From positions 1-64,000 of the forward strand of contig JAUILL010000014.1 of assembly GCA_030433335.1 (NCBI GenBank): a stretch of DNA of 64,000 nucleotides, read 5' to 3'. Made by a program: the position numbers and the translations under genes. The notes under the pieces were generated by a model, which saw nothing but the letters and a program-made list of their open reading frames with translations, ran no database searches and was not told the origin of the DNA. How positions within the stretch are numbered: the stretch's first letter is position 1; each line of letters opens with the position of its first letter. Shown here piece after piece: positions 9,202 through 21,121 of the stretch. This stretch comes from Alphaproteobacteria bacterium (lineage in GTDB: Bacteria; Pseudomonadota; Alphaproteobacteria; Rhodobacterales; Rhodobacteraceae).

Positions 9202-9279
9202 CCTTGGCTTCGTCACTCTCTGGGCGTAACGGATGGTCCTGCAAGCTATCCCGACATGATCTCATTGGGAGGAGATACT

Positions 9280-10284
9280 ATGAAACGTTTCGCTTTCGGC
9301 GCCGTCTCGGCGCTTGTTCTTTCTGCAACCGGTGTACTGGCGGCTGACTACCCCGCCAAAGAAATCCAAGGCATCATCCAGTGGGGTGCCGGTGGATCGA
9401 CCGACACCGTGATGCGTTCGGTCACCCCCCACGCCGAAGACGTTCTGGGCGGCACTGTCGTCATGCAGAACATGACCGGCGGCGTTGGCGCAATCGCTCT
9501 GAACTACGTCGCTACCCAGTCGACCGATGGCTACACCCTGCTGATGGGCGCGGAAAACCCGCTGCTCTACAAAGTCATGGGTCTGGGCAAGAAAGACTAC
9601 ACCGACTTCACCCCCATCAACCTGCTGGCACGTGGCACCCCGATCCTGGTGGCGAGCCCCGACGCGCCCTTTGACGATTACGCGGGCATGATGGCCTACA
9701 TCAAAGAGCACCCCGGTGAGGTTCGCTTTGGCGCGACCGGCCCCGGCGGCCTGCCTTCGGTTGTCACCGCGATGATCGAAACTGTTGAAGGCGAGCTGGA
9801 CGTGATCTCGGTTCCCTACGATGGCGACGGCCCCGCGCTGACCGCTCTGCAGGGTGGCGCAATCGACGTGATGCCCGCCGTTCTGGGCGCAGCGATCGAA
9901 GGCATCCGCGCAGGCAACATGAAGCCCCTGGCACTGTTTGACGTTGCAGCAAACGAAAAGCTGCCCGAAGCGCCCGCAGTCACCACCTTCAACGAGACCT
10001 ACAACGACTTCCTGCCTTGGGGTCCGTTCTTTGGTGTGTTCGTTGCCAAAGGCACCCCCGATGAAGTCGTCGAGAAGCTGTCGGCTGCCTATGCCGAAGC
10101 CGCAACCAACGAAGACTTCATTCAGCTGATGGACAACCGTGGTTTCACCATGATGAACATCTCGGGTGCAGAAGCCGAAGACTTCCTGTCGACCTGGCAG
10201 CAGAACACCACTTGGCTGCTGCAGGACGCTGGCCTGACCAAGAGCTCGCCCGAAGAGTTCGGCATCGCGCGTCCCGGCGAATAA
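9280..10284 (+). CDS. tctC: Tripartite tricarboxylate transporter substrate-binding protein (TctC/Bug family)
   Basis: 334 aa periplasmic binding protein. The signal peptide is MKRFAFGAVSALVLSATGVLA with a likely cut after ALA; the mature start DYPAKEIQGIIQWGAGGSTD is the Bug-family beginning. GGAGGAG precedes ATG 9280. It is the first gene of the tctC-tctB-tctA-aroE-quiC run, so its substrate is probably a hydroaromatic or aromatic acid rather than citrate. An 8-bp hairpin after the gene may stabilise its message relative to the membrane genes. Confidence 0.9.
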   Translation: MKRFAFGAVSALVLSATGVLAADYPAKEIQGIIQWGAGGSTDTVMRSVTPHAEDVLGGTVVMQNMTGGVGAIALNYVATQSTDGYTLLMGAENPLLYKVMGLGKKDYTDFTPINLLARGTPILVASPDAPFDDYAGMMAYIKEHPGEVRFGATGPGGLPSVVTAMIETVEGELDVISVPYDGDGPALTALQGGAIDVMPAVLGAAIEGIRAGNMKPLALFDVAANEKLPEAPAVTTFNETYNDFLPWGPFFGVFVAKGTPDEVVEKLSAAYAEAATNEDFIQLMDNRGFTMMNISGAEAEDFLSTWQQNTTWLLQDAGLTKSSPEEFGIARPGE

Positions 10285-10298
10285 TCTAAACCGACAGA

Positions 10299-10317
10299 TC
10301 GCCCGCTTGGCGGGCGA
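10299..10317 (+). other. Intercistronic hairpin between tctC and tctB
   Basis: TCGCCCGC-TTG-GCGGGCGA forms a perfect 8-bp GC-rich stem with a 3-nt loop, with no U-tract after it. Such structures after binding-protein genes often protect the upstream message from 3' decay or cause partial termination, giving more binding protein than permease. Confidence 0.55.
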
Positions 10318-10410
10318 AGCTGCTATACTGGCGCCGCTCGTCCCTAGATGGGCGGCGTCTATCGTTCCGCAGGGCGGGCCTCGCCTTGCACTAGGCTGAT
10401 GGAGGAAGCC

Positions 10411-10989
10411 ATGGAACCCGATTTTCGCGGTGACGCTGATCACCACGATGGTACGTCCGACGCCACTCCGGGTGGCTACGCAGACAGCCGTCGCCCCGGT
10501 GAACTGGTTTTCACCATTCTCATGACATTGGGCAGCGCGGCCCTTTTGTGGAATGCCTATGGCATCGCGGGTTTCGAGGCGCTGTCCTCGCCCGGTGCGA
10601 TCCCCATGGCGACTGCAGCCGTGATGCTAATTTCTTCGATTGTAATCTTTGTTAAGACCATCGGCCTGAAGAAGGTCGAGGGCGAGACCCTGACCAAAGA
10701 CATTCTGCCGTGGATCGTTCTGATCATGTTCGCCCTATTGGTGGCGTTCGGCATCGCATTGAAGCCGCTGGGCTTTATCCCGACGGCTGCGATTTTCCTT
10801 GTTCTGTCGATGAAGCTGATGGCCCGCCGCAGCTGGCCCCTGACCATTCTGATCGCCTTGGGGTCGTTGGTCATGATCTGGCTGATCTTCCGCATCGTGT
10901 TCACGGTGCTGTTGCCCTCTGGCGTCGTGCCCGAAGCAGAGTTCATCCAGATGTTCCGCGACCTATTCTCTGCCGGAGGTGACGCATGA
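10411..10989 (+). CDS. tctB: TTT family small permease subunit TctB
   Basis: 192 aa integral membrane protein with about four hydrophobic helices (near residues 30-52, 63-85, 100-140 and 145-175), matching the TctB family of tripartite tricarboxylate transporters. ATG 10411 is preferred because GGAGGAA lies 5-11 bases upstream; the longer upstream reading frame has no comparable site. Its stop overlaps the tctA start by 4 bp (ATGA), so translation is coupled. It works with TctA and the TctC binding protein as a sodium- or proton-driven importer. Confidence 0.85.
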   Translation: MEPDFRGDADHHDGTSDATPGGYADSRRPGELVFTILMTLGSAALLWNAYGIAGFEALSSPGAIPMATAAVMLISSIVIFVKTIGLKKVEGETLTKDILPWIVLIMFALLVAFGIALKPLGFIPTAAIFLVLSMKLMARRSWPLTILIALGSLVMIWLIFRIVFTVLLPSGVVPEAEFIQMFRDLFSAGGDA

Positions 10990-12503
10990 CCGCGCTGATG
11001 GATATGCTGACAATCTTTACCCACCCCGAGCTTTTGCTGCTCGTTGGTCTGGGCACCTTTGCTGGCGTCTACGTGGGCGCCATCCCGGGTCTGTCGGTCA
11101 CGATGGCTGTTTCGATCCTGATCTCGTTCACCTTTTCATGGGACGTTCTGCCCGCGATCTCGCTGATGATCGGCATCTACATGGGCGGCGTTTATGGCGG
11201 CTCGCGGACGGCGATCCTTCTGAACATTCCCGGTGCGCCCTCGGCGATTGCGACGGCAATGGACGGCTATCCTATGGCCAAACGCGGCGAGGCAGGGACT
11301 GCCATCGGCGTGACCACCGTGATGTCCTTCTTCGGCGGCTTTATCGGCATTGGCGTGCTGGCTCTGGCTGCGCCGCTTGTGTCGGACTTCGCCCTGAAAT
11401 TCCAGCCCCGTGACTACATGCTACTGGCTGTTCTGGGCATTCTGCTGGTCGGCTCTCTGTCGTCCGGTTCGCTGGTCAAAGGTATCTTCTCGGGCGCACT
11501 GGGCATCGGGATCGGCGCTGTGGGCATGGACCCACTGACCTTTACCGAGCGTTTCACCTTTGACATCCCGCTCCTGACCCAAGGCATTTCGTTCATCGCC
11601 GTGATGATCGGTATGTTTGGTGTGTCCGAAGCGCTGCTGCAGTTGCACCACATCGACCTGCCCGCTGTGCGTCAGAAGATTGACCGCATCGTTCCGTCCT
11701 TCAGCACAATCAAGAAGCACCTGCCGCTGTCGATCCAGACCTCATCAATCGGCGTGATCATCGGTGCTCTGCCCGGCACGGGCGGCGACATCGCAGCGCT
11801 GATGGCCTATGACCACGCCAAGCGCGTGACCAAGAACCCCGAGCGTGAATTCGGCGATGGTGCAATCGAAGGTCTGGTTGCCCCTGAAACCGCGAACAAC
11901 GCGGCGGTGGGTGGCGCGTTCATTCCGATGATGACGCTCGGTATCCCCGGCGACGCGGTGACCGCGATCATGATCGGCGCGCTTTATATCCACGGTCTGA
12001 ACCCAGGCCCGATGCTGATGATCGACCAGCCGCATATGTTCTGGTTCATCGTGGGTGCTTTGATCACCGCGAACTTCTTTATGCTGCTGTTTGGCCTGAC
12101 CGGCATCAAGCTGTTCACCAAAATCGTGGAAATCCCCCGCGCGTTCCTGATCCCGCTGATCATGCTCCTATCCATCGTCGGCGCTTATGCGGTGAACAAC
12201 TCGATCACCGACGTTTACTGGATGCTTGGCTTTGGTGTGTTCGGCTACTTCATGCGCCACTACGGCTACCCCTTGGGGCCGGTCATCCTGGGTGTGATCC
12301 TCAGCCGCCTCTTGGACGATAACTGGCGCCGTGCCATCATCTCCGAGCGAGAGGACTTGGGCCGCTTCTTTGGTGGACTCTTTTCCAGCCCCCTCTCGAC
12401 CGTGCTGTTCGTTGCCGTGGTGCTGATTTTCGTGTCGCAAACCCCGCTGTGGACCAAAGGCAAAGAGATGATCTTTGGCCGTAGCAACCGGAGTGCATCG
12501 TAA
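10986..12503 (+). CDS. tctA: TTT family large permease subunit TctA
   Basis: 505 aa, the standard TctA length, with 10-12 hydrophobic helices. The family's repeated glycine-rich motifs are seen as GAIPGLSVTMAVS near the N-terminus and GALPGTGGDIAALMAYDHAK in the middle. The gene overlaps tctB by 4 bp and touches the dehydrogenase start (TAATG). It forms the membrane pore of the uptake system. Its position ahead of aroE and quiC makes shikimate, quinate or a related acid the likely cargo. Confidence 0.92.
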   Translation: MTALMDMLTIFTHPELLLLVGLGTFAGVYVGAIPGLSVTMAVSILISFTFSWDVLPAISLMIGIYMGGVYGGSRTAILLNIPGAPSAIATAMDGYPMAKRGEAGTAIGVTTVMSFFGGFIGIGVLALAAPLVSDFALKFQPRDYMLLAVLGILLVGSLSSGSLVKGIFSGALGIGIGAVGMDPLTFTERFTFDIPLLTQGISFIAVMIGMFGVSEALLQLHHIDLPAVRQKIDRIVPSFSTIKKHLPLSIQTSSIGVIIGALPGTGGDIAALMAYDHAKRVTKNPEREFGDGAIEGLVAPETANNAAVGGAFIPMMTLGIPGDAVTAIMIGALYIHGLNPGPMLMIDQPHMFWFIVGALITANFFMLLFGLTGIKLFTKIVEIPRAFLIPLIMLLSIVGAYAVNNSITDVYWMLGFGVFGYFMRHYGYPLGPVILGVILSRLLDDNWRRAIISEREDLGRFFGGLFSSPLSTVLFVAVVLIFVSQTPLWTKGKEMIFGRSNRSAS

Positions 12504-13354
12504 TGCAAGACCTGCCCGCTTCTCTTCAGCTTGGCCTGATCGGTGACAACATTGCCGCCTCGCGCTCGCCTCTTCTGCACAAGATCGCAGGCGAGCAAAA
12601 CGGGATGGACGTCAGCTATCTGCGTCTGGTCCCCCGCGAGATGGAACAGGACTTTGACGGCGTGTTCCAATACGCCAAAGACAACGGTTACCGTGGGATC
12701 AACGTCACCTATCCCTACAAGGAATACGTGACCAAGTTCCTGCAAGTGGACGATCCGCTGGTGCGTGGCATCGGCGCCGTTAACACCGTGATCTTTGGCG
12801 AGGGCACCCCCAAGGGCCACAACACCGATTACTCGGGCTTTATGTCGGCCTACCGGAACGTGCGGGGGGATCGTGCCCCCGGTGCGGTCCTGATGATCGG
12901 AACAGGCGGAGTGGGGCGGGCGATTGCCTTCGGTCTGGTGGGTCTGGGCTGCACCGAACTACGTCTGGTGGATCGCGATACCGCCAAGGCAGAGGCGCTT
13001 GCTGCCGACGTCCGCAAAACCGCGCCCGAGGTGACAGTGATCTGCGGCTCGAACGCCGAGGCGTTGGCTGATGGCGCGCAGGGCATCGTGAACTGCACCC
13101 CCGTCGGCATGGTCGGCTATGACGGCACCCCGCTGGCGGAATGGGCGATGTCCGGTGCGGCTTGGGCGTTCGATGCGGTCTACACGCCGCCAAACACCCA
13201 GTTCCTGACCGACGCCAAGGCCAACGGCCTCGACATCATTTCGGGGTGGGAGCTGTTCTTCTTCCAAGGGGTGCACGCGTGGAATTTCTTCTGCGGCGCG
13301 CCTCTGGACGAAGCGGCCCTCCGCGCGGAACTCATGACCGAAAGGACCTACTAA
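12503..13354 (+). CDS. aroE: Shikimate/quinate dehydrogenase, probably catabolic and NAD-dependent
   Basis: 283 aa AroE-family protein. The substrate domain shows ASRSPLLH and INVTYPYKEYV, holding the catalytic Lys, with GAVNTV and HNTDYSGF (substrate Asp) following. The dinucleotide motif is GTGGVGRAIA. The second strand ends LRLVDRDTAKAEAL: an Asp stands where NADP-dependent biosynthetic AroE proteins usually have an NRT-type basic patch, which favours NAD(H) as in catabolic quinate/shikimate dehydrogenases. The gene lies between tctA and quiC, with overlapping or touching ends, so oxidation of imported shikimate/quinate to 3-dehydro acids is inferred rather than chorismate biosynthesis. 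Confidence 0.87.
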   Translation: MQDLPASLQLGLIGDNIAASRSPLLHKIAGEQNGMDVSYLRLVPREMEQDFDGVFQYAKDNGYRGINVTYPYKEYVTKFLQVDDPLVRGIGAVNTVIFGEGTPKGHNTDYSGFMSAYRNVRGDRAPGAVLMIGTGGVGRAIAFGLVGLGCTELRLVDRDTAKAEALAADVRKTAPEVTVICGSNAEALADGAQGIVNCTPVGMVGYDGTPLAEWAMSGAAWAFDAVYTPPNTQFLTDAKANGLDIISGWELFFFQGVHAWNFFCGAPLDEAALRAELMTERTY

Positions 13355-15240
13355 TGAAGACCTCGATCGCCACCGTATCGGTCTCTGGCAACCTGCGCGA
13401 AAAGCTCGAAGCAATCGCTGCCGCAGGCTTCTCGGCGATCGAGATTTTCGAACAGGACTTTATCGCGGACGAAGGCACCCCGCGCGATGTGGGGCGCATT
13501 GTCCGCGACCACGGGCTGGAGATTGCGCTGTTCCAACCCTTCCGCGATTTCGAAGGCCTGCCCGGTGCCCTGCGCACCAAGGCCTTTGACCGCGCCGAGC
13601 GCAAGTTCGACCTGATGCAGGAACTGGGCACCGATCTGGTGCTTTTCTGCTCGTCCGTGCATCCGCAGGCTTTGGGCGGTATCGACCGCGCGGCCGAGGA
13701 TTTCGCTGAACTGGGGGAACGCGCCGCCAAACGCGGTATCCGCGTCGGTTACGAGGCGTTGGCGTGGGGCACCCACGTGAACGACCACCGCGATGCTTGG
13801 GAAATCGTGCGCCGTGCGGATCACCCGAACATCGGTCTGATCGTGGACAGCTTCCACACCTTGGGCCGCAAGATCGACCCGAACACCATCCGCCGCATCC
13901 CCGGGGACAAGATCTTCTTTGTTCAGCTGGCCGACGCGCCGATGATCGAGATGGACCTGCTGTACTGGTCACGCCACTTCCGCAACATGCCGGGCGAAGG
14001 CGATCTGGCCGTCACCGATTTTATGCGTGCTGTGGTGGCGACGGGCTACAACGGCCCCGTCAGCCTTGAGATTTTCAACGACCAGTTCCGTCAAGGCAAC
14101 CCGCGCACCGTGGCCCGCGACGGGTATCGTTCGCTGATCAACCTGATGGACGACGTGCGCCGGAACGAGCCCGAAGTCGCGATGCCCCTGCCGAACCTGC
14201 CCCCCAAGGTCGAGGTCACCGGCACATCGTTCATCGAGTTCGCCTCGCGCGGGGACGACGCCGAGAAGCTGCGCAAACAGCTCGAAGTTCTAGGCTTTGC
14301 CAAGACTGGCCAGCACGTCGACAAGAAGGTCGCGCTTTGGCAGCAGGGCGATATCCGCGTGATCATCAACGAGCAGCCTCACGATTTCGCAGGCTCGGCC
14401 TATAACATGCACGGCACCTGCGTGTGTGATTTCGGTCTGGACGTTGGATCGGCCGCTGACACCGTGACCCGCGCCAAAGCGCTGGGGGCGACCATGTTCT
14501 CGCAGCCCCTGTCCGAGGGGCAGATCGACATTCCGGTGATCCGCGGTCTGGGGGGTAGCCTGCTGCACTTCCTGGATCAGTCGGAAAAGCTGGCCCCCGT
14601 TTGGGAAACCGAATTCGCACCGGTCGAGGCTGATACCACCGGCGTTGGCCTGAAGCATGTGGACCACGTGGCGCAGACCATGACCTATGACGACATGCTG
14701 TCTTGGTCGCTGTTCTACACCTCGCTCTTTGACATGAAGCAGTCCCCGATGTTCGACGTGACCGACCCCGATGGTCTGGTCCGTTCCCGCGCGATGGAGG
14801 CGAAGTCGGGCAAGTTCCGGATCACCCTGAACGGTGCTGAGACCCACCGCACGCTGGCGGGTGCTTTCCTTGCAGATAGCTTTGGCGCTCCGGTCCAGCA
14901 CATCGCACTGGCGACCGACGATATCTTTGCTACTGCGCAGAAGCTGGCCGATCGCGGGCTGGCAACTCTGCCGATCTCGGGCAACTACTATGACGACCTT
15001 GCGGCCCGCTTTGACATCGACCCCGACCAGCTGGCGATCATGAAAAAGCTGAACATCCTCTACGATCGGGATGACCAAGGCGAGTTCTTTCAAGTCTACA
15101 GCCAAGCGATTCCCGGCGGCCTGTTTGTCGAGGTGCTGGAGCGCCGCGACGGATACGGCGGATACGGTGCTCCGAACGCCCCCATGCGCATCGCCGCCCA
15201 AAAGCGTCTGGCGCGGGCCAAGGATATGCCCAGAAACTAA
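13354..15240 (+). CDS. quiC: Bifunctional sugar phosphate isomerase / HPPD-like protein, 3-dehydroshikimate dehydratase type
   Basis: 628 aa in two parts. Residues 1 to about 275 form an AP_endonuc_2 TIM barrel (AIEIFEQDFIADEGTP, VGYEALAWGTHVNDH, IGLIVDSFHTLG, VSLEIFND). The remainder is a 4-hydroxyphenylpyruvate-dioxygenase-like VOC module with HVDHVAQTM, VQHIALATDDIF and GLFVEVLERRDGYGGYG as likely metal-ligand stretches. This architecture is known for QuiC1-type 3-dehydroshikimate dehydratases, which make protocatechuate. The start at ATG 13354 directly follows the aroE stop. A terminator follows at 15267. It completes a transport, oxidation and dehydration sequence. Confidence 0.88.
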   Translation: MKTSIATVSVSGNLREKLEAIAAAGFSAIEIFEQDFIADEGTPRDVGRIVRDHGLEIALFQPFRDFEGLPGALRTKAFDRAERKFDLMQELGTDLVLFCSSVHPQALGGIDRAAEDFAELGERAAKRGIRVGYEALAWGTHVNDHRDAWEIVRRADHPNIGLIVDSFHTLGRKIDPNTIRRIPGDKIFFVQLADAPMIEMDLLYWSRHFRNMPGEGDLAVTDFMRAVVATGYNGPVSLEIFNDQFRQGNPRTVARDGYRSLINLMDDVRRNEPEVAMPLPNLPPKVEVTGTSFIEFASRGDDAEKLRKQLEVLGFAKTGQHVDKKVALWQQGDIRVIINEQPHDFAGSAYNMHGTCVCDFGLDVGSAADTVTRAKALGATMFSQPLSEGQIDIPVIRGLGGSLLHFLDQSEKLAPVWETEFAPVEADTTGVGLKHVDHVAQTMTYDDMLSWSLFYTSLFDMKQSPMFDVTDPDGLVRSRAMEAKSGKFRITLNGAETHRTLAGAFLADSFGAPVQHIALATDDIFATAQKLADRGLATLPISGNYYDDLAARFDIDPDQLAIMKKLNILYDRDDQGEFFQVYSQAIPGGLFVEVLERRDGYGGYGAPNAPMRIAAQKRLARAKDMPRN

Positions 15241-15433: not shown

Positions 15434-15742
15434 ATGCGAAACCTTCATCCTGCGCCACTCATAGCTCTTGGACTGATCGCCATTCTCTTTGCAGAACTGG
15501 CGAGCGTTGCCGTGGCTGCGGTGCCGGATGATGCGGATCTGGTCCTTGTGGTCGCCCCCCCTTGGCATGGCGGGCCCGAGGCCATAGTCGCCGCTGCTGG
15601 CGGTTCAGTCGTTGGTCCCTCCAACGCACCGCTCGCTGTGGTGGCGACTGACGCGACGCCGGCTGCGTTCAAAGACGCAGGCGCATGGTTTCTGCTCGAT
15701 CCTAAAAACGTTCCATTCCTCTGCGCAACGGAAACACCCTGA
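15434..15742 (+). CDS. Small exported or membrane-anchored hypothetical protein
   Basis: 102 aa. Residues 1-29 form a hydrophobic signal or anchor segment ([22 protein letters not shown]). The remainder has a [14 protein letters not shown] stretch and an [22 protein letters not shown] tail. No known domain is recognised. Its stop overlaps the chemoreceptor start (TGATG), so the two are probably co-translated. A role tied to the chemoreceptor is inferred from coupling only. Confidence 0.6.
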
Positions 15743-16983
15743 TGAGTACTGACGACACCACCTCCTCCAAGGCGAGCGCCATCGCGCTAACCCGAAATGT
15801 GGCCATGGGGCTGACCCCCATTGCGCCGATCTCTGCCTTTCTGGTCGGTGGCAACCTGACCGCCGAACTGATTGCATCCTTGGTTTTGCTGGCGGTGGCC
15901 TTTGCGTCGAACCGCGTGGCTGTGAAGTCTCAGGCTGTGGTTCTGGCGACTGTCCTGATCGGCCAGTGTGTGGCGTTCACCTCGGCATTTGCGGGCCATC
16001 CTTGGCAGCTTGACACGCACATGATGTTCTTTGCTGTTCTCGCGATCATTGCGACCATGGGAAGCATTCCCGCACTGCTGGCAGGTGTTGCTGTCACGGC
16101 TGTCCACCACCTCGCCTTCGGTCTCCTGGCGCCTTCGTTGGTGTTCCCGAGCCTCGAGATGATGGACGCTCTGGGTCGTGTGGTCTTCCACGCGGTCATC
16201 GTCATCTTCGAAGCGGCGATCCTGTTGTGGTCGATGATCCGCTCGCAAAAGGCCGAGGCACTTATCATCTCTGGCCGCGAAGAACTGAGCAAGTCGGCCG
16301 CTGCCGCCGAAGAGGCGCAGGTCGAAGCTGAAGCTGCGCGTGAACAGGCGCTCGAAGTTGCTGCCCGCACCCGTAAGGAAGGCCAGAAGGCCGCAGTCGC
16401 AGTCGAGGAAATCTCTGCCGCGGCCAGTTCCGCCGCCGAAACCGCAGGCAATGCACGCACTGTCGTAGAGCAGACCCGCTCCTATGCGCAGGGCTCTGGT
16501 GACGTTGTGAACCGTGCCATGGATGCGATGGCGGCGATCAAGACCTCGTCCGCAGAGATTGATACCATCATCACCGTGATTGATGAAATTGCACGCCAGA
16601 CCGACCTGCTGGCTCTGAACGCCGCTGTTGAATCGGCGCGTGCCGGTGAAGCGGGCCGAGGCTTCGCAGTCGTTGCCCAAGAAGTCCGCAAGCTGGCCCA
16701 GCGCTCGGCGGATGCCAGCCAGCAGATCCGCAATCTGGTGACAACATCGTCCGAGCAGGTTTCCGAAGGCGTAGAACTGGTCGGCGAAACCGGCGAGGCC
16801 CTGAACCAGATCCTTGGTGCAGTTTCGGAACTGGCTGAACTGATGAGTGGCATCGCAGAGAATGCCAAGCAGCAGTCGGAAGGCTTGAACCAGGTCAGCG
16901 TCGCGATCTCTCAGATCGACACTATTTCCGAGGATGACACTCGTCAGACCATCACGTCGCGTCCGTCGCTCGCTCTGGCATAA
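15742..16983 (+). CDS. Methyl-accepting chemotaxis protein with multi-helix membrane domain
   Basis: 413 aa. Residues about 15-160 contain five or six hydrophobic helices with no large periplasmic sensor. A coiled coil follows (about 170-220), then the MCP signalling domain. The hairpin tip is intact: [20 protein letters not shown] and [20 protein letters not shown]. The last 17 residues (from EDDTRQT) do not resemble a normal MCP end, so the C-terminal methylation helix is short or altered. It has no cheW or cheA neighbour. The sensory input is probably within the membrane domain. Its start overlaps the small upstream gene. Confidence 0.88.
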
Positions 16984-17008: not shown

Positions 17009-17039
17009 AAAGCGTCCGTGCAACCGCACGGACGCTTTT
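17009..17039 (+). terminator. Rho-independent terminator after the chemoreceptor gene
   Basis: AAAGCGTCCGTGC-AACC-GCACGGACGCTTT is a perfect 13-bp stem followed by a short T tract. It separates the chemoreceptor unit from the Pho-box region. Confidence 0.85.
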
Positions 17040-17287
17040 GCATTTCAAGCAAGTAAGGCGTTAGAGACCCGTGGTAATATTGCCGCAGGCGACGTTTCAG
17101 TCCCGCGACCTTGCCAAAAGTTTAGTCTGAAATTTCCATTAAGCGGCGGGCGATTAGGCAAGATGCCGTTTCGATAGGCGTTCACGGAATGCCAATAATT
17201 TCACCGAAATTTGAACGTTGTTGCACTTTTGGGTTGCAAAGAAAGAATCTGTCGCCATGCTTCGGGTCAAGGAAACTAAGCATTTTC

Positions 17288-17305
17288 CTGTCGTAAAACT
17301 GTAAT
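17288..17305 (+). promoter_or_regulatory. Pho box (PhoB-binding direct repeat)
   Basis: CTGTCGTAAAACTGTAAT matches the 7-4-7 Pho-box plan: CTGTCGT, an AAAA spacer, then CTGTAAT, with repeats exactly 11 bp apart. About 16 of 18 positions agree with CTGTCAT-A(A/T)A(A/T)-CTGTCAT. It lies 141 bp upstream of ATG 17447, whose product has a phosphate-binding-protein-like domain, which fits PhoB activation during phosphate starvation. Confidence 0.65.
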
Positions 17306-17364
17306 AATTTATTGGGATTTGTCGGGGGAATTCCTAGGGCGGCGGCACTATCTTGGCCCGCGAC

Positions 17365-17383
17365 CTGCAATTTTAAGTTGCAG
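17365..17383. repeat. Inverted repeat in the leader of the fusion gene
   Basis: CTGCAA-TTTTAAG-TTGCAG is a perfect 6-bp dyad about 64 bp before the start codon. It could be a second operator or a small leader hairpin; nothing decides between them. Confidence 0.4.
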
Positions 17384-17446
17384 GCGGCGGTATCGCTTTG
17401 CCTGTCGTCTGGATTGTCTTGCCGCAAAAATGTCAAAGGACTTTTG

Positions 17447-19816
17447 ATGTTTAAGACTATCGCTATCGGTTTCACGTGTTCGCTGGTTGCCGCGCTGCTC
17501 GCATCAACCGCCGCTGTGGCTCAGGATAAAATGACGTTCGCGACCAGCCAGCCGTACGGCCTGATTTCCGGTTCTGACCTGCCTGATGGCGGCGTGGGCA
17601 CTTTGGTTTTCAAGCACATTCTGGACAAAGCCGGAATTGCTGCGGACGTGACCTTTGCCCCAACTTGGGGAGAGGCCGAAGAAGGGGCCCGCCAAGCCGA
17701 CTATGACGGCGCGTTCCCGTACTACTACACCCTGAGCCGGTCGCTCGATTTCCGTTACACCGACGCCGTTCTGGCGGTTGGCGAGCGTCTGTACTCCAAC
17801 GACACGCGTCTTACGTCTCTGGATGATCTGAAGGGGCACGACCTGTGCTATCCTGCGGGCTATGATCTGGCGACGTCGTTGCAGCTGCGCGTCGATGCCG
17901 GTGACTTCACCCGTGTCACCGCAGAAGACATGAACGCCTGCTTTGAAATGCTGGCCAACAAGAACGTCTTTGCCGTGTTGGCCGACCAGAGCGAGGCGGG
18001 TTTCGTTTTGAACTTCGCCGAATATGACGTCTCTTCGGTGCGCGAAAGCTCTTTTGATCTGGCGCGCCGCACCTTGCACCTGATGCTGCCCTTCGATGCG
18101 CCCAATGCCGAAGAAGTCGTCACGGCGTTCAACGCAGCGCTTGTCGAAGCCCGCGAGAGCGGCGAGTTGGAAGCATTGATTAAAGACCGGATCGACGTGG
18201 ACCTGATGCCCGTTAGTGCGACGGACTACCGTCTGAAATCTGCGGTCGACGCTACGCTGAAGCTGCATGACGGTTCGCGCCAGACTGGCCGCGTTCTGGA
18301 GTCTGCGCCCGGCCGCTACGACGTGAACACCCAGTATGGTCCGATCACCTATCCGCGCAGCATCATCGCAGACATCTGCCCGGTGAACGCTTGCCCCGGC
18401 GACGAGGTGGTTGCCGCAGCCCCTGCCGAGACTGCTCCGATCGAAGTGGCCGAAGCAGTGGCCGAGGATGTCGCCGAAGCAACTGTGACCGAAGATGTTG
18501 TCGCAAGCATCCAGCCGACCGCGCTGCGCTTGCAGGGGTCGAACACCATCGGCGCACAGCTCGCACCAGCGCTGCTCGAAGCGTGGGTTGCCAAAGAGGG
18601 CGCCGATATGGGTGCTTGGGTTCTGGGTGAAGAAAACGAGCGTGCTGCAGAAATCGAAGGCGACTTGCCCGGCGGCGTCAGCGAAGTCACCTTGGCCGCC
18701 CATGGCAGCTCGACCGGTTTCCGCGCGATGCTCGAAGGTAACGCGGACATCGCAATGGCCTCGCGTCGGATCAAAGAGGAAGAGCGCAACGACCTGATGG
18801 TGGCGGGCTATCCTGACCTTCTGGCTGATGATGTCGAGGGCGAGGTGATCGTGGGTCTGGATGGCGTCGCCGTCATCGTCCACCCCGAGAACCAGATCCG
18901 AGAGTTGAGTATTGATCAGGTCCGAGACATCTTTGCGGGCACCATCACCAACTGGTCCGAGCTTGGTGGCCAGAATTTGCCGATCGTTGTGCATACCCGC
19001 GACGGCAAGTCTGGCACCTTTGACACCTTTGAATCGCTGGTGATGAATGACCTGCCGATGGTCGGCTCCGCTCGGGAGTTCGAGTCGAATGCGAACCTGT
19101 CTGACGCTGTTCGCGCGGAGCCGGGCGCAATTGGCTTTACCGGTCTGTCCTATGTGCGTAACGCAAAAGCCTTGCCTCTGAAGGTCTGCGACGCGATCCA
19201 CAGCCCCACTGGCTTCTCGGTCAAGACCGAGGAATACCCGCTCAGCCGTCGCCTCTATATGTACAAGAACACCCAAAGCGATGCGGCGGACGTAAATGCA
19301 TTTGCCGACTTTGTTTTGGATGAAGGCCAGAAGATTGTGTCTGAAAACGGGTTCGTCGACCTGAACCTCGGTGTCCGCACTGGTTGGGAGTCCGTCGATG
19401 CTCTGGCGAACATCCAGTTCATGGCTCACCAGAATGGGCCTGTTGTGCGCGACTACGTTCTGACCGTGCGTGACATGGACCGCCTGAGCTCGACCTTCCA
19501 CTTCATCACTGGTCAGTCTGCGCTGGACGCACGTTCGGTCAGCGATCTGTCGCGTTTGGCAGAGTGGGTCAAGCAACCTGAAAACGAGGGCCGCAAGCTG
19601 CTCTTCGTCGGGTTCGCGGACAACCGCGGTGGCTACGAAATCAACCTCGAGATTTCGCGCAAACGTGCCGAGAGCGTTGCAGAAGCATTGCGTCAACAGT
19701 TGGACCGCGACGTGGAAATCGAAGTGATCGCAGTGGGTGAAGATGCGCCCGTCGCGTGCAACGACGAGAATGGCTACGACAAGAACCGTCGCGTCGAAGT
19801 CTGGGCCTCTCGCTAA
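17447..19816 (+). CDS. Triple-domain periplasmic protein: SBP_bac_3-like, PstS-like and OmpA domains
   Basis: 789 aa. The signal peptide is MFKTIAIGFTCSLVAALLAS to VAQ (residues 1-26). Residues about 27-250 resemble an amino-acid-type (SBP_bac_3) binding domain. A small module (about 262-311) with YGPITYPRSIIADICP follows, then an Ala/Glu/Val-rich linker. Residues about 357-640 are a PstS-like phosphate-binding fold (LRLQGSNTIG, SSTGFRAMLEGNADIAMASR, FAGTITNWSELGG, TRDGKSGTFDTFE). Residues about 680-789 are an OmpA peptidoglycan-binding domain (GFADNRGGYEINLEISRKRA, NRRVEVW). ATG 17447 is chosen because the signal peptide begins there. It lies downstream of a Pho box and 21 bp ahead of a secreted partner gene. 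A cell-wall-tethered phosphate-responsive sensor or scavenger is inferred; no ABC permease is adjacent. Confidence 0.85.
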   Translation: MFKTIAIGFTCSLVAALLASTAAVAQDKMTFATSQPYGLISGSDLPDGGVGTLVFKHILDKAGIAADVTFAPTWGEAEEGARQADYDGAFPYYYTLSRSLDFRYTDAVLAVGERLYSNDTRLTSLDDLKGHDLCYPAGYDLATSLQLRVDAGDFTRVTAEDMNACFEMLANKNVFAVLADQSEAGFVLNFAEYDVSSVRESSFDLARRTLHLMLPFDAPNAEEVVTAFNAALVEARESGELEALIKDRIDVDLMPVSATDYRLKSAVDATLKLHDGSRQTGRVLESAPGRYDVNTQYGPITYPRSIIADICPVNACPGDEVVAAAPAETAPIEVAEAVAEDVAEATVTEDVVASIQPTALRLQGSNTIGAQLAPALLEAWVAKEGADMGAWVLGEENERAAEIEGDLPGGVSEVTLAAHGSSTGFRAMLEGNADIAMASRRIKEEERNDLMVAGYPDLLADDVEGEVIVGLDGVAVIVHPENQIRELSIDQVRDIFAGTITNWSELGGQNLPIVVHTRDGKSGTFDTFESLVMNDLPMVGSAREFESNANLSDAVRAEPGAIGFTGLSYVRNAKALPLKVCDAIHSPTGFSVKTEEYPLSRRLYMYKNTQSDAADVNAFADFVLDEGQKIVSENGFVDLNLGVRTGWESVDALANIQFMAHQNGPVVRDYVLTVRDMDRLSSTFHFITGQSALDARSVSDLSRLAEWVKQPENEGRKLLFVGFADNRGGYEINLEISRKRAESVAEALRQQLDRDVEIEVIAVGEDAPVACNDENGYDKNRRVEVWASR

Positions 19817-19837: not shown

Positions 19838-21121
19838 ATGCGTGTTCTGTTAAAAACAGCCTGTGTGGTGGCGCTCTGTGGAATGATGCAACAGGCTGCG
19901 GCCCAAGCGTCGACCGATCCGGCAGAGGAGGGCGAAGTTCGTCAGGCGGTGCGCATTGATGCTCCGTCCGAACTGCCCCAACAGGCGACGGCCCCTGCGT
20001 CGCCCGTGACAGACGGGGGGGCCGGTCTGGCCCTTCCCAACGGCTTTGACGAGCCCACACTTGACGAAAAGGCGGTCGCTCAAGCGCCTGCACCGGCACC
20101 GGTTCCTGCTGCAGAAACCTCGCCCGAGCCAGTGATGCCGGCTTGTGATGATCCGCAGACTGTTCAGATGGTCGAAGCAAACGGCGGTCTGCAGGTGCTG
20201 GTTTCTCCGGTTTGTGCAGAGCAGGTGCGGTTGTCGCTGACTGATCGTGACGGGGCGATCGCGAAGCCTGCGTTTGAAGTGATTGACCGCACCTTGCGTG
20301 TGGATTTGCCCTGTGGTCGCAGGTTCAAAACACTGAAATTGCTTGCGGGGTATCAGCCCGCTTCCATCGCGCTGTCTCCGCGCGAGGTGCCATGCACTGA
20401 AGAGGTGGTTCATGTGGCGCAACCCGCAGCCCCGACCGCTCCGGTTCAAGCAAGTGCTTGCGGAAATTCCTTTGATGCCACAATCGACAAAGGCATCCTG
20501 TCCGCCGCATTCACGGGATGCACCGCAGGGGAAACGATCGCGCTGTCCTATCGCGGCCTGAGCTTCGAAACACGCGCTGCCGAGGACGGGAACGCGACCC
20601 TTCGACTGCCGTTGCTGGCGTCAAAGTCGCAGGTTCAGACTGCCGATGGGGTGGATCATGATGTCACTTGGCCCGAAGCCAATCAGACCATCCGCGTTGT
20701 TCTGACGTGGGACAGTGCCGTCGATCTGGACCTGTATGTTCTGGAACCCGGTCTCAGCTACGATACATTTGAAACAGAGCCGCACACCGCGCGCTCCGAG
20801 GCTGCCTTCGGAGCTGCTGGGCAGATGGTCGTGACATCGGACGGAACGGATGCCACCCGTTTCGAAGTCTACGACAGCCCGCAGAACAGCGGCTTGCAGG
20901 GCATGGGCGCAGTGGTTGTGGCCGACGTCAGCCGTGGCATGACCCCGACAGGCGCGTTTTGCAAAGGCGGCGATCTGGCAGGACCGGAATTTCGTGTCCT
21001 GGCCGGCGGAGCCGAAACGCCTGACGAAGCGCGCTTTGCTTTTGAGAAAGCGGAATGTGGCAGTAGCCTGACACGCGGACAGTACTATCGCCGCGTCAAT
21101 GACATCCGCCCCTTCTGGTAG
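19838..21121 (+). CDS. Secreted YfaP/DUF2135-like protein
   Basis: 427 aa. The signal peptide is MRVLLKTACVVALCGMMQQAAAQ. A Pro/Ala-rich linker runs to about residue 100. Two similar Cys-containing segments follow (about 104-190 and 206-275), each starting with a Cys-containing PACDD- or SACGN-like turn. The C-terminal part contains IRVVLTWDSAVDLDLYVLEP, the hallmark of YfaP/DUF2135 domains, plus several Cys residues likely to form disulfides. AAAGGGGAG precedes ATG 19838 and the gap to the upstream fusion gene is 21 bp, so they are co-transcribed. Function is unknown. It ends ahead of a clear terminator. Confidence 0.75.
   Translation: MRVLLKTACVVALCGMMQQAAAQASTDPAEEGEVRQAVRIDAPSELPQQATAPASPVTDGGAGLALPNGFDEPTLDEKAVAQAPAPAPVPAAETSPEPVMPACDDPQTVQMVEANGGLQVLVSPVCAEQVRLSLTDRDGAIAKPAFEVIDRTLRVDLPCGRRFKTLKLLAGYQPASIALSPREVPCTEEVVHVAQPAAPTAPVQASACGNSFDATIDKGILSAAFTGCTAGETIALSYRGLSFETRAAEDGNATLRLPLLASKSQVQTADGVDHDVTWPEANQTIRVVLTWDSAVDLDLYVLEPGLSYDTFETEPHTARSEAAFGAAGQMVVTSDGTDATRFEVYDSPQNSGLQGMGAVVVADVSRGMTPTGAFCKGGDLAGPEFRVLAGGAETPDEARFAFEKAECGSSLTRGQYYRRVNDIRPFW

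Follow-up and report, generated by a model that had tools for sequence, protein, structure and literature searches.

Organization of the locus

The 64,000-nucleotide stretch of marine bacterial DNA analyzed here (the window) contains a two-gene unit preceded by a Pho box (Table 1). The first gene encodes an exported protein in which an SBP_bac_3-like domain, a PstS-like domain and an OmpA-like domain follow one another in a single chain, hereafter the triple-domain protein; the second, which begins 21 bases past the stop codon of the first, encodes an exported partner protein. The sequence-only reading of this DNA had given 17288-19816 as a single span for box and protein. The coding sequence begins at the ATG at 17447, a start site shared with two of the orthologs, and the 141 bases between the box and the ATG form a leader. 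The conserved partner gene had been overlooked in that reading.

Table 1. Features of the two-gene unit and its upstream region, with positions in the window.
Feature	Position	Strand	Basis
Terminator-like hairpin (AGCGTCCGTGC / GCACGGACGCT, then a T run)	17011..17036	+	read from the sequence
Direct repeat GTTGCA-N7-GTTGCA, 5' of the Pho box	17220..17238	+	alignment of four genus promoters
Pho box, 7-4-7, CTGTCGT AAAA CTGTAAT	17288..17305	+	consensus match, family-trained matrix, genome pattern search, ortholog alignment
TATTGGGATT, probable core promoter region just 3' of the box	17310..17319	+	three-species alignment; function inferred
Triple-domain exported protein, 789 aa, CDS including stop	17447..19816	+	open reading frame; start set by AAAGGAC ahead of it and by the signal peptide
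Signal peptide, residues 1-26 (AVA-QD), no lipobox seen	17447..17524	+	read from sequence and ortholog alignment
SBP_bac_3-like domain, residues ~27-250	17525..18196	+	Pfam, ortholog alignment, profile against PDB
Small beta-type domain, residues ~266-318	18242..18400	+	by eye from alignments
Ala/Val/Glu-rich linker	18401..18514	+	sequence, ortholog alignment
PstS-like domain, residues ~357-640; GSNT, GSSTGF, ASRRIK, RDGKSGTFDTF	18515..19366	+	Pfam, NCBIfam, alignment
OmpA-like peptidoglycan-binding domain, residues ~681-787; Asp725 and Arg740 kept	19487..19807	+	Pfam, alignment
Exported partner protein, 427 aa, second gene of the unit	19838..21121	+	open reading frame, synteny, profile comparison

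For comparison within the genus we used four genomes: the window's own (G000), G198, G039 and G199. The genus is Donghicola, judged by one named relative, Donghicola mangrovi. The start site mentioned above is that of the G198 and G039 orthologs.

The terminator-like hairpin stands between the two-gene unit and an upstream gene (15434-16983) for a chemoreceptor-type protein, in which an MCP signalling domain, and no ligand domain, was recognized. This gene lies directly upstream of the triple-domain gene in three species. It is preceded by a gene for a 102-aa protein, and the pair is kept in D. mangrovi and G198 and absent at the G199 locus. We considered the chemoreceptor gene as a member of the unit and rejected it on account of the intervening hairpin and its absence upstream in G199.

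Closer to the gene, the GTTGCA repeat block is partly conserved in all four genus promoters, including that of G199, which has no Pho box, and TATTGGGATT is identical in three species. The leader contains a perfect inverted repeat, CCTGCAA-N7-TTGCAGG (17364-17384); G198 and G039 have weaker inverted repeats at the same position, with changed bases. Unusual folding of the leader was rejected (z -1.3).

Domains and ligand-site residues of the triple-domain protein

Profile searches bore out the three domains named in the sequence-only reading. The PstS-like domain (PF12849, PBP_like_2, 1e-30) and the OmpA domain (PF00691, 8e-10, score 39.3 against a cut-off of 27.2) both exceed their Pfam cut-offs. 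The SBP_bac_3 match (PF00497, E 0.0016) falls short, with a score of 18.6 against a gathering cut-off of 26.4, and the G199 ortholog gives no SBP_bac_3 match up to an E of 0.01. A profile built from the four orthologs nevertheless matches the amino-acid binding-protein structure 4g4p at 6e-6. Arg98 and Asp180 are invariant in the four orthologs and align with an Arg and an Asp of 4g4p; we take these, by the roles of their counterparts in GlnBP, to be positions used by amino-acid binding proteins. The small beta-type domain is, by eye, common to the N-terminus of two-domain PstS-OmpA proteins.

TIGR02136 is the best NCBIfam match of the PstS-like domain, at a score of 178.1 that does not reach the cut-off of 206.6; the canonical PstS of this genome is likewise below it. 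GSNT, GSSTGF, ASR.IK and RD..SGT, presumably the phosphate-site motifs, are kept in all four triple-domain orthologs as judged by sequence alignment. Loss of the phosphate-binding residues, which had been named as grounds for abandoning the phosphate reading, is thus not what the alignment reveals, and together with Arg98 and Asp180 the motifs appear compatible with the two binding sites that had been proposed. The OmpA domain is of the peptidoglycan type, as had also been claimed: PF00691 passes its cut-off and Asp725 and Arg740, which we assume to be the peptidoglycan-binding Asp/Arg pair, are retained. AlphaFold2 models built from two-row alignments had pLDDT values of 31.9 (triple-domain protein) and 39.6 (partner), which is not good enough to search for similar folds.

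No ABC permease gene was found among the adjoining open reading frames inspected by eye, and the neighbors run against Pfam were not permeases, in agreement with the sequence-only reading. There is no linkage to pstCAB at this locus. The canonical system lies on another contig (G000:C46) as a phoR-pstS-pstC-pstA-pstB-phoU-phoB locus, in which phoB (TIGR02154, 351 bits, cut-off 296) and pstS were called by profile and phoR, pstC, pstA, pstB and phoU by eye. Given this separate locus, which has its own Pho box, the triple-domain gene is not the main PstS gene.

The Pho box and its conservation in the genus

The site CTGTCGTAAAACTGTAAT at 17288-17305 (+) agrees at 16 of 18 positions with the E. 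coli consensus, the match that the sequence-only reading had described. It is the sole site with at most three mismatches to that consensus in the 64 kb; 0.07 such sites are expected per shuffled window, and at least one was present in 7 of 100 shuffles. A looser Pho pattern with a free spacer has 27 sites with at most two mismatches in the 4.2 Mb genome, and the box alone is therefore little proof.

A matrix was derived from pstS promoters found across the host's bacterial family (30 loci; 57 of 61 genomes matched). Five of the 30 promoters (L097, L103, L104, L114 and L123) were excluded, their best match being far upstream or out of register, and the remaining 25 served for training; the triple-domain gene was not among them. 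The 30 promoters gave CTGTCATAAAACTGTTAC as the Pho box of the family, in many cases with a third repeat resembling CTGTCAC behind it. Scored with this matrix, the window site (17.8 bits) tops every position on both strands of the 64 kb, the runner-up reaching 11.3 bits. The training sites score 19.3-33.4 bits, so the site ranks below all 25 and is a weak-to-moderate box.

Among the other three species, the box is kept at the same place in G198 (16.0 bits) and G039 (16.8 bits), with distances from box start to ATG of 159 bases in G000, 160 in G198 and 162 in G039. G199, the most divergent species (57% protein identity), has no upstream site above 8.3 bits. Loss of the box in close relatives had been put forward as evidence against Pho control; it has occurred in this one species of three, and the two closer ones retain the site. 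In the three species with the box, 13 of its 18 columns are identical, compared with 150 of 389 (39%) across the rest of about 400 bases. A Pho box at the promoter, as expected of PhoB regulon members, is hence present in three of four genus members. G199 keeps the gene and its partner without the box, and Pho control is therefore not essential to the module.

A genome-wide pattern, written once the ortholog boxes were known, returned this box and the pstS box as the two best sites in both G198 and G039; in G000 the two fall in the class with 0-1 mismatch along with two other sites. At two mismatches or fewer, the numbers of sites and of sites in a reversed control were 11 and 3 in G000, 8 and 8 in G198, 9 and 1 in G039, and 6 and 3 in G199. 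Twenty other pattern sites were inspected, nine of which sit within an open frame of at least 100 aa, and beside them no Pho-regulon gene was recognized except pst and possibly a Pit-like gene. The latter site (L163, G039:C2:83670-83687) is Pho-box-like, lies 79 bases ahead of a gene resembling, by eye, a Pit-type phosphate permease, and is itself in an open frame.

Could the box be a chance match, or a site for another factor, with the gene outside PhoB control? By chance alone the whole genome should contain about 2.3 sites scoring this high, the site is weaker than every training box and lost in G199, and another conserved element, the GTTGCA repeat, lies upstream. Against this, the gene's own intergenic stretch, read on the correct strand, has a probability of about 6e-4 of containing such a score (463 positions at 1.2e-6 each), and in three species the site persists with column identity well above that of its surroundings. 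We consider a chance or foreign site very unlikely, and find the Pho box convincing because of its position, its rank with the family matrix and its conservation in two of the three other genus members. Pho boxes have been predicted at marine plcP clusters (PMC4796936).

A conserved partner gene

The partner gene adjoins the triple-domain gene at all four genus loci, and in G199 the pair sits in different chromosomal surroundings. Neither Pfam nor NCBIfam nor PHROGs places the partner in a family (one sub-threshold Pfam match, E 0.07), and it has no PDB match. Many two-domain PstS-OmpA genes have a gene for an exported-looking protein directly 5'. A profile of the four partner sequences compared with a profile of 13 such neighbors revealed that the two are homologous (hhalign 96%, 2e-9); the link between the partner and its paralog emerged from profile comparison and not from BLASTP. 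Searched against 101 relatives, the partner profile matched in 18 genomes, 14 of them outside the genus, and among the places listed 13 of the 14 non-genus matches adjoin a PstS-OmpA gene, the exception being G037. Gene order is swapped relative to the two-domain loci, the partner lying 3' of the triple-domain gene. The triple-domain gene and its partner thus form a two-gene module, and the partner is homologous to a neighbor found family-wide beside many, not all, PstS-OmpA genes.

Distribution and origin of the triple-domain form

With one genome sampled per species, 196 of the 198 genomes searched in the family gave some match to the PstS-OmpA core, in many cases to the OmpA part only. A match of core strength (best E <1e-12) was counted by hand in 143 of the 198, a figure that includes the window's genome and one genus-mate and for which at most five candidates were scored per genome. 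The two-domain form already has an NCBI name, and the triple-domain protein has the same order of PstS-like and OmpA domains in one exported chain. We therefore rejected the idea that the PstS-OmpA fusion is itself new. The sequence-only reading had called the fusion unusual; what is specific to the genus is only the additional N-terminal binding domain, found in all four genomes.

Among the matches listed in the family search, those spanning the N-terminus were confined to G000 and G039. With the N-terminal domain alone as query, matches at an E of up to 1e-6 came from 32 of the 292 genomes searched in the order, and matches at up to 1e-8 from 18 of the 385 in the class; G000 counts toward both figures and was the one genus member among the matches listed. 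Apart from G000, these matches lie in open frames of 236-427 aa and are therefore not triple fusions; the class relatives listed are stand-alone frames of at most 30% identity. The triple-domain form probably arose within the genus when a stand-alone binding protein was inserted into a common PstS-OmpA protein, behind its signal peptide and ahead of its small beta domain.

The PstS-OmpA tree, built from 36 regions, splits into two supported halves with 18 regions each. The triple-domain proteins form one long-stemmed clade within one half, in which 11 of the 14 other members have SGT or TGT at the phosphate-loop position. The genus's other paralogs fall in the opposite half; these four two-domain proteins lack both GSS.G and RD..SGT. 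The loss of these phosphate-type motifs means that this branch can do without phosphate-type binding. The degeneration of these paralogs is what speaks for a purely structural role in the envelope, in which the binding-protein folds would attach to the wall or to other proteins and have no small-molecule ligand. By contrast, all four triple-domain proteins retain the motifs and the two amino-acid-type residues despite identity down to 57%, and we regard a structural role for the triple-domain protein as unlikely.

One such degenerate paralog lies in the window's own genome (L002 / L093, on G000:C9), near genes resembling secA, radC and dnaJ by eye. It is part of a family-wide uncharacterized pair with its own exported partner. 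At two other two-domain loci, L015 and L017, the PstS-OmpA gene is followed by a gene for a protein with a PilJ sensor domain (PF13675, E ~1e-29).

We also scanned 32 two-domain loci for Pho boxes, comprising 28 of the best family matches and the four genus paralogs; start codons were set by a crude rule that clearly failed at L013, L021 and L034, and where the partner gene sits upstream the scan covered only a few hundred bases ahead of the partner. None of the 32 had an upstream site of at least 10 bits on either strand, the top scores being 8.5 bits on the sense strand and 9.8 on the other, and general Pho control of PstS-OmpA genes was rejected on this count. A search for the architecture and its linkage to Pho boxes had been suggested; the PstS-OmpA core is common (143/198), and no Pho box was found at the two-domain loci scanned. 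The ancestral role may therefore not concern phosphate supply, and Pho control seems to have been gained with or after the triple-domain form, or lost in G199. Among the genomes searched, the two-pocket, apparently phosphate-switched version turned up in a single small genus, and presumably wall-attached single-pocket relatives are common. The triple-domain module is a real, genus-specific variant of a widespread one.

Comparison with characterized and annotated proteins

The annotated protein WP_152441739.1 of Pseudoalteromonas ('phosphate ABC transporter substrate-binding/OmpA family protein') also combines a PstS-like and an OmpA domain in one chain, is 37.7% identical over residues 359-786 of the triple-domain protein, and likewise has no permease annotated alongside. 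It differs in being a two-domain protein of 565 aa without the N-terminal SBP_bac_3 part; no Pho box was found within 500 bases ahead of its gene (top score 8.8 bits), and the next gene encodes a 198-aa hypothetical protein. Canonical PstS (G000:C46; TIGR02136/TIGR00975) shares the superfamily, the GS.T, GSS.G, ASR.IK and GT motifs and a Pho-box promoter. However, it has a single binding domain with neither an OmpA nor a second binding domain, is encoded with the pst permease genes, phoU and phoB, and has a stronger Pho box.

With SBP_bac_3 amino-acid binding proteins (PDB 4g4p) the N-terminal domain shares the fold family, by profile, and the ligand-site Arg and Asp, whereas it has no cognate permease or ATPase alongside and is fused ahead of PstS-OmpA. 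PDB 6h30, also matched by the ortholog profile, likewise has more than one SBP domain per chain; its domains belong, by molecule name, to an ABC permease protein, while the triple-domain protein joins two different binding folds to a wall-binding domain. Narrow full-text searches of one open-access collection returned no study of a PstS-OmpA protein or of the PstS-OmpA/partner pair.

Proposed function

The usual view of a periplasmic binding protein is that it forms the mobile half of a transporter or receptor. Our favored explanation, advanced tentatively and as something short of probable, is that the locus encodes a PhoB-controlled envelope module whose wall-tethered, two-site binder acts as a periplasmic ligand trap. 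Under phosphate limitation PhoB would raise expression of the module from the Pho-box promoter. The OmpA domain would hold the triple-domain protein on the wall, the PstS-like domain may bind phosphate or an anion resembling it, and an amino-acid-type ligand may occupy the N-terminal domain. Lacking its own permease, the protein could serve, speculatively, as an immobile trap or buffer from which the PstSCAB system encoded elsewhere can draw, with the partner as a fixed companion. We favor a trap because no permease lies alongside and no signalling domain was recognized.

The main rival is a sensor whose binding domains report ligand state, via the partner or a chemoreceptor-like protein, to tune chemotaxis, envelope or Pho signalling. 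It is consistent with the lack of a permease and with the chemoreceptor gene directly upstream in three species, and receives some support from related genes: the same-clade two-domain relatives tested (2/2, L015 and L017) adjoin the exported-looking PilJ-domain proteins. The hairpin, however, sets the chemoreceptor gene apart, that gene is not upstream in G199, and neither Pfam nor NCBIfam revealed a signalling domain in the triple-domain protein or the partner. On balance we judge a sensor rather doubtful. We are similarly skeptical of a bolder reading, a receptor module induced by phosphate starvation and lacking a permease, whose single wall-bound chain would read two ligands, phosphate and an amino-acid-like compound, alongside an exported partner of its own; it would be this genus's elaboration of the widespread, uncharacterized PstS-OmpA/partner system.

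If the trap or a sensor is correct, a wall-fixed, Pho-driven, permease-less double binder would allow the cell to retain nutrients in its periplasm or to detect them in concert. The Pho box also gives a regulatory handle on a PstS-OmpA/partner pair that is widespread in the family.

Further upstream in the window (9256-15240), genes for a TctC-type binding protein, two membrane proteins, a shikimate-dehydrogenase-like protein and a two-part isomerase/dioxygenase-like protein were recognized by eye in a row, presumably serving the uptake and breakdown of quinate/shikimate or other aromatic compounds.
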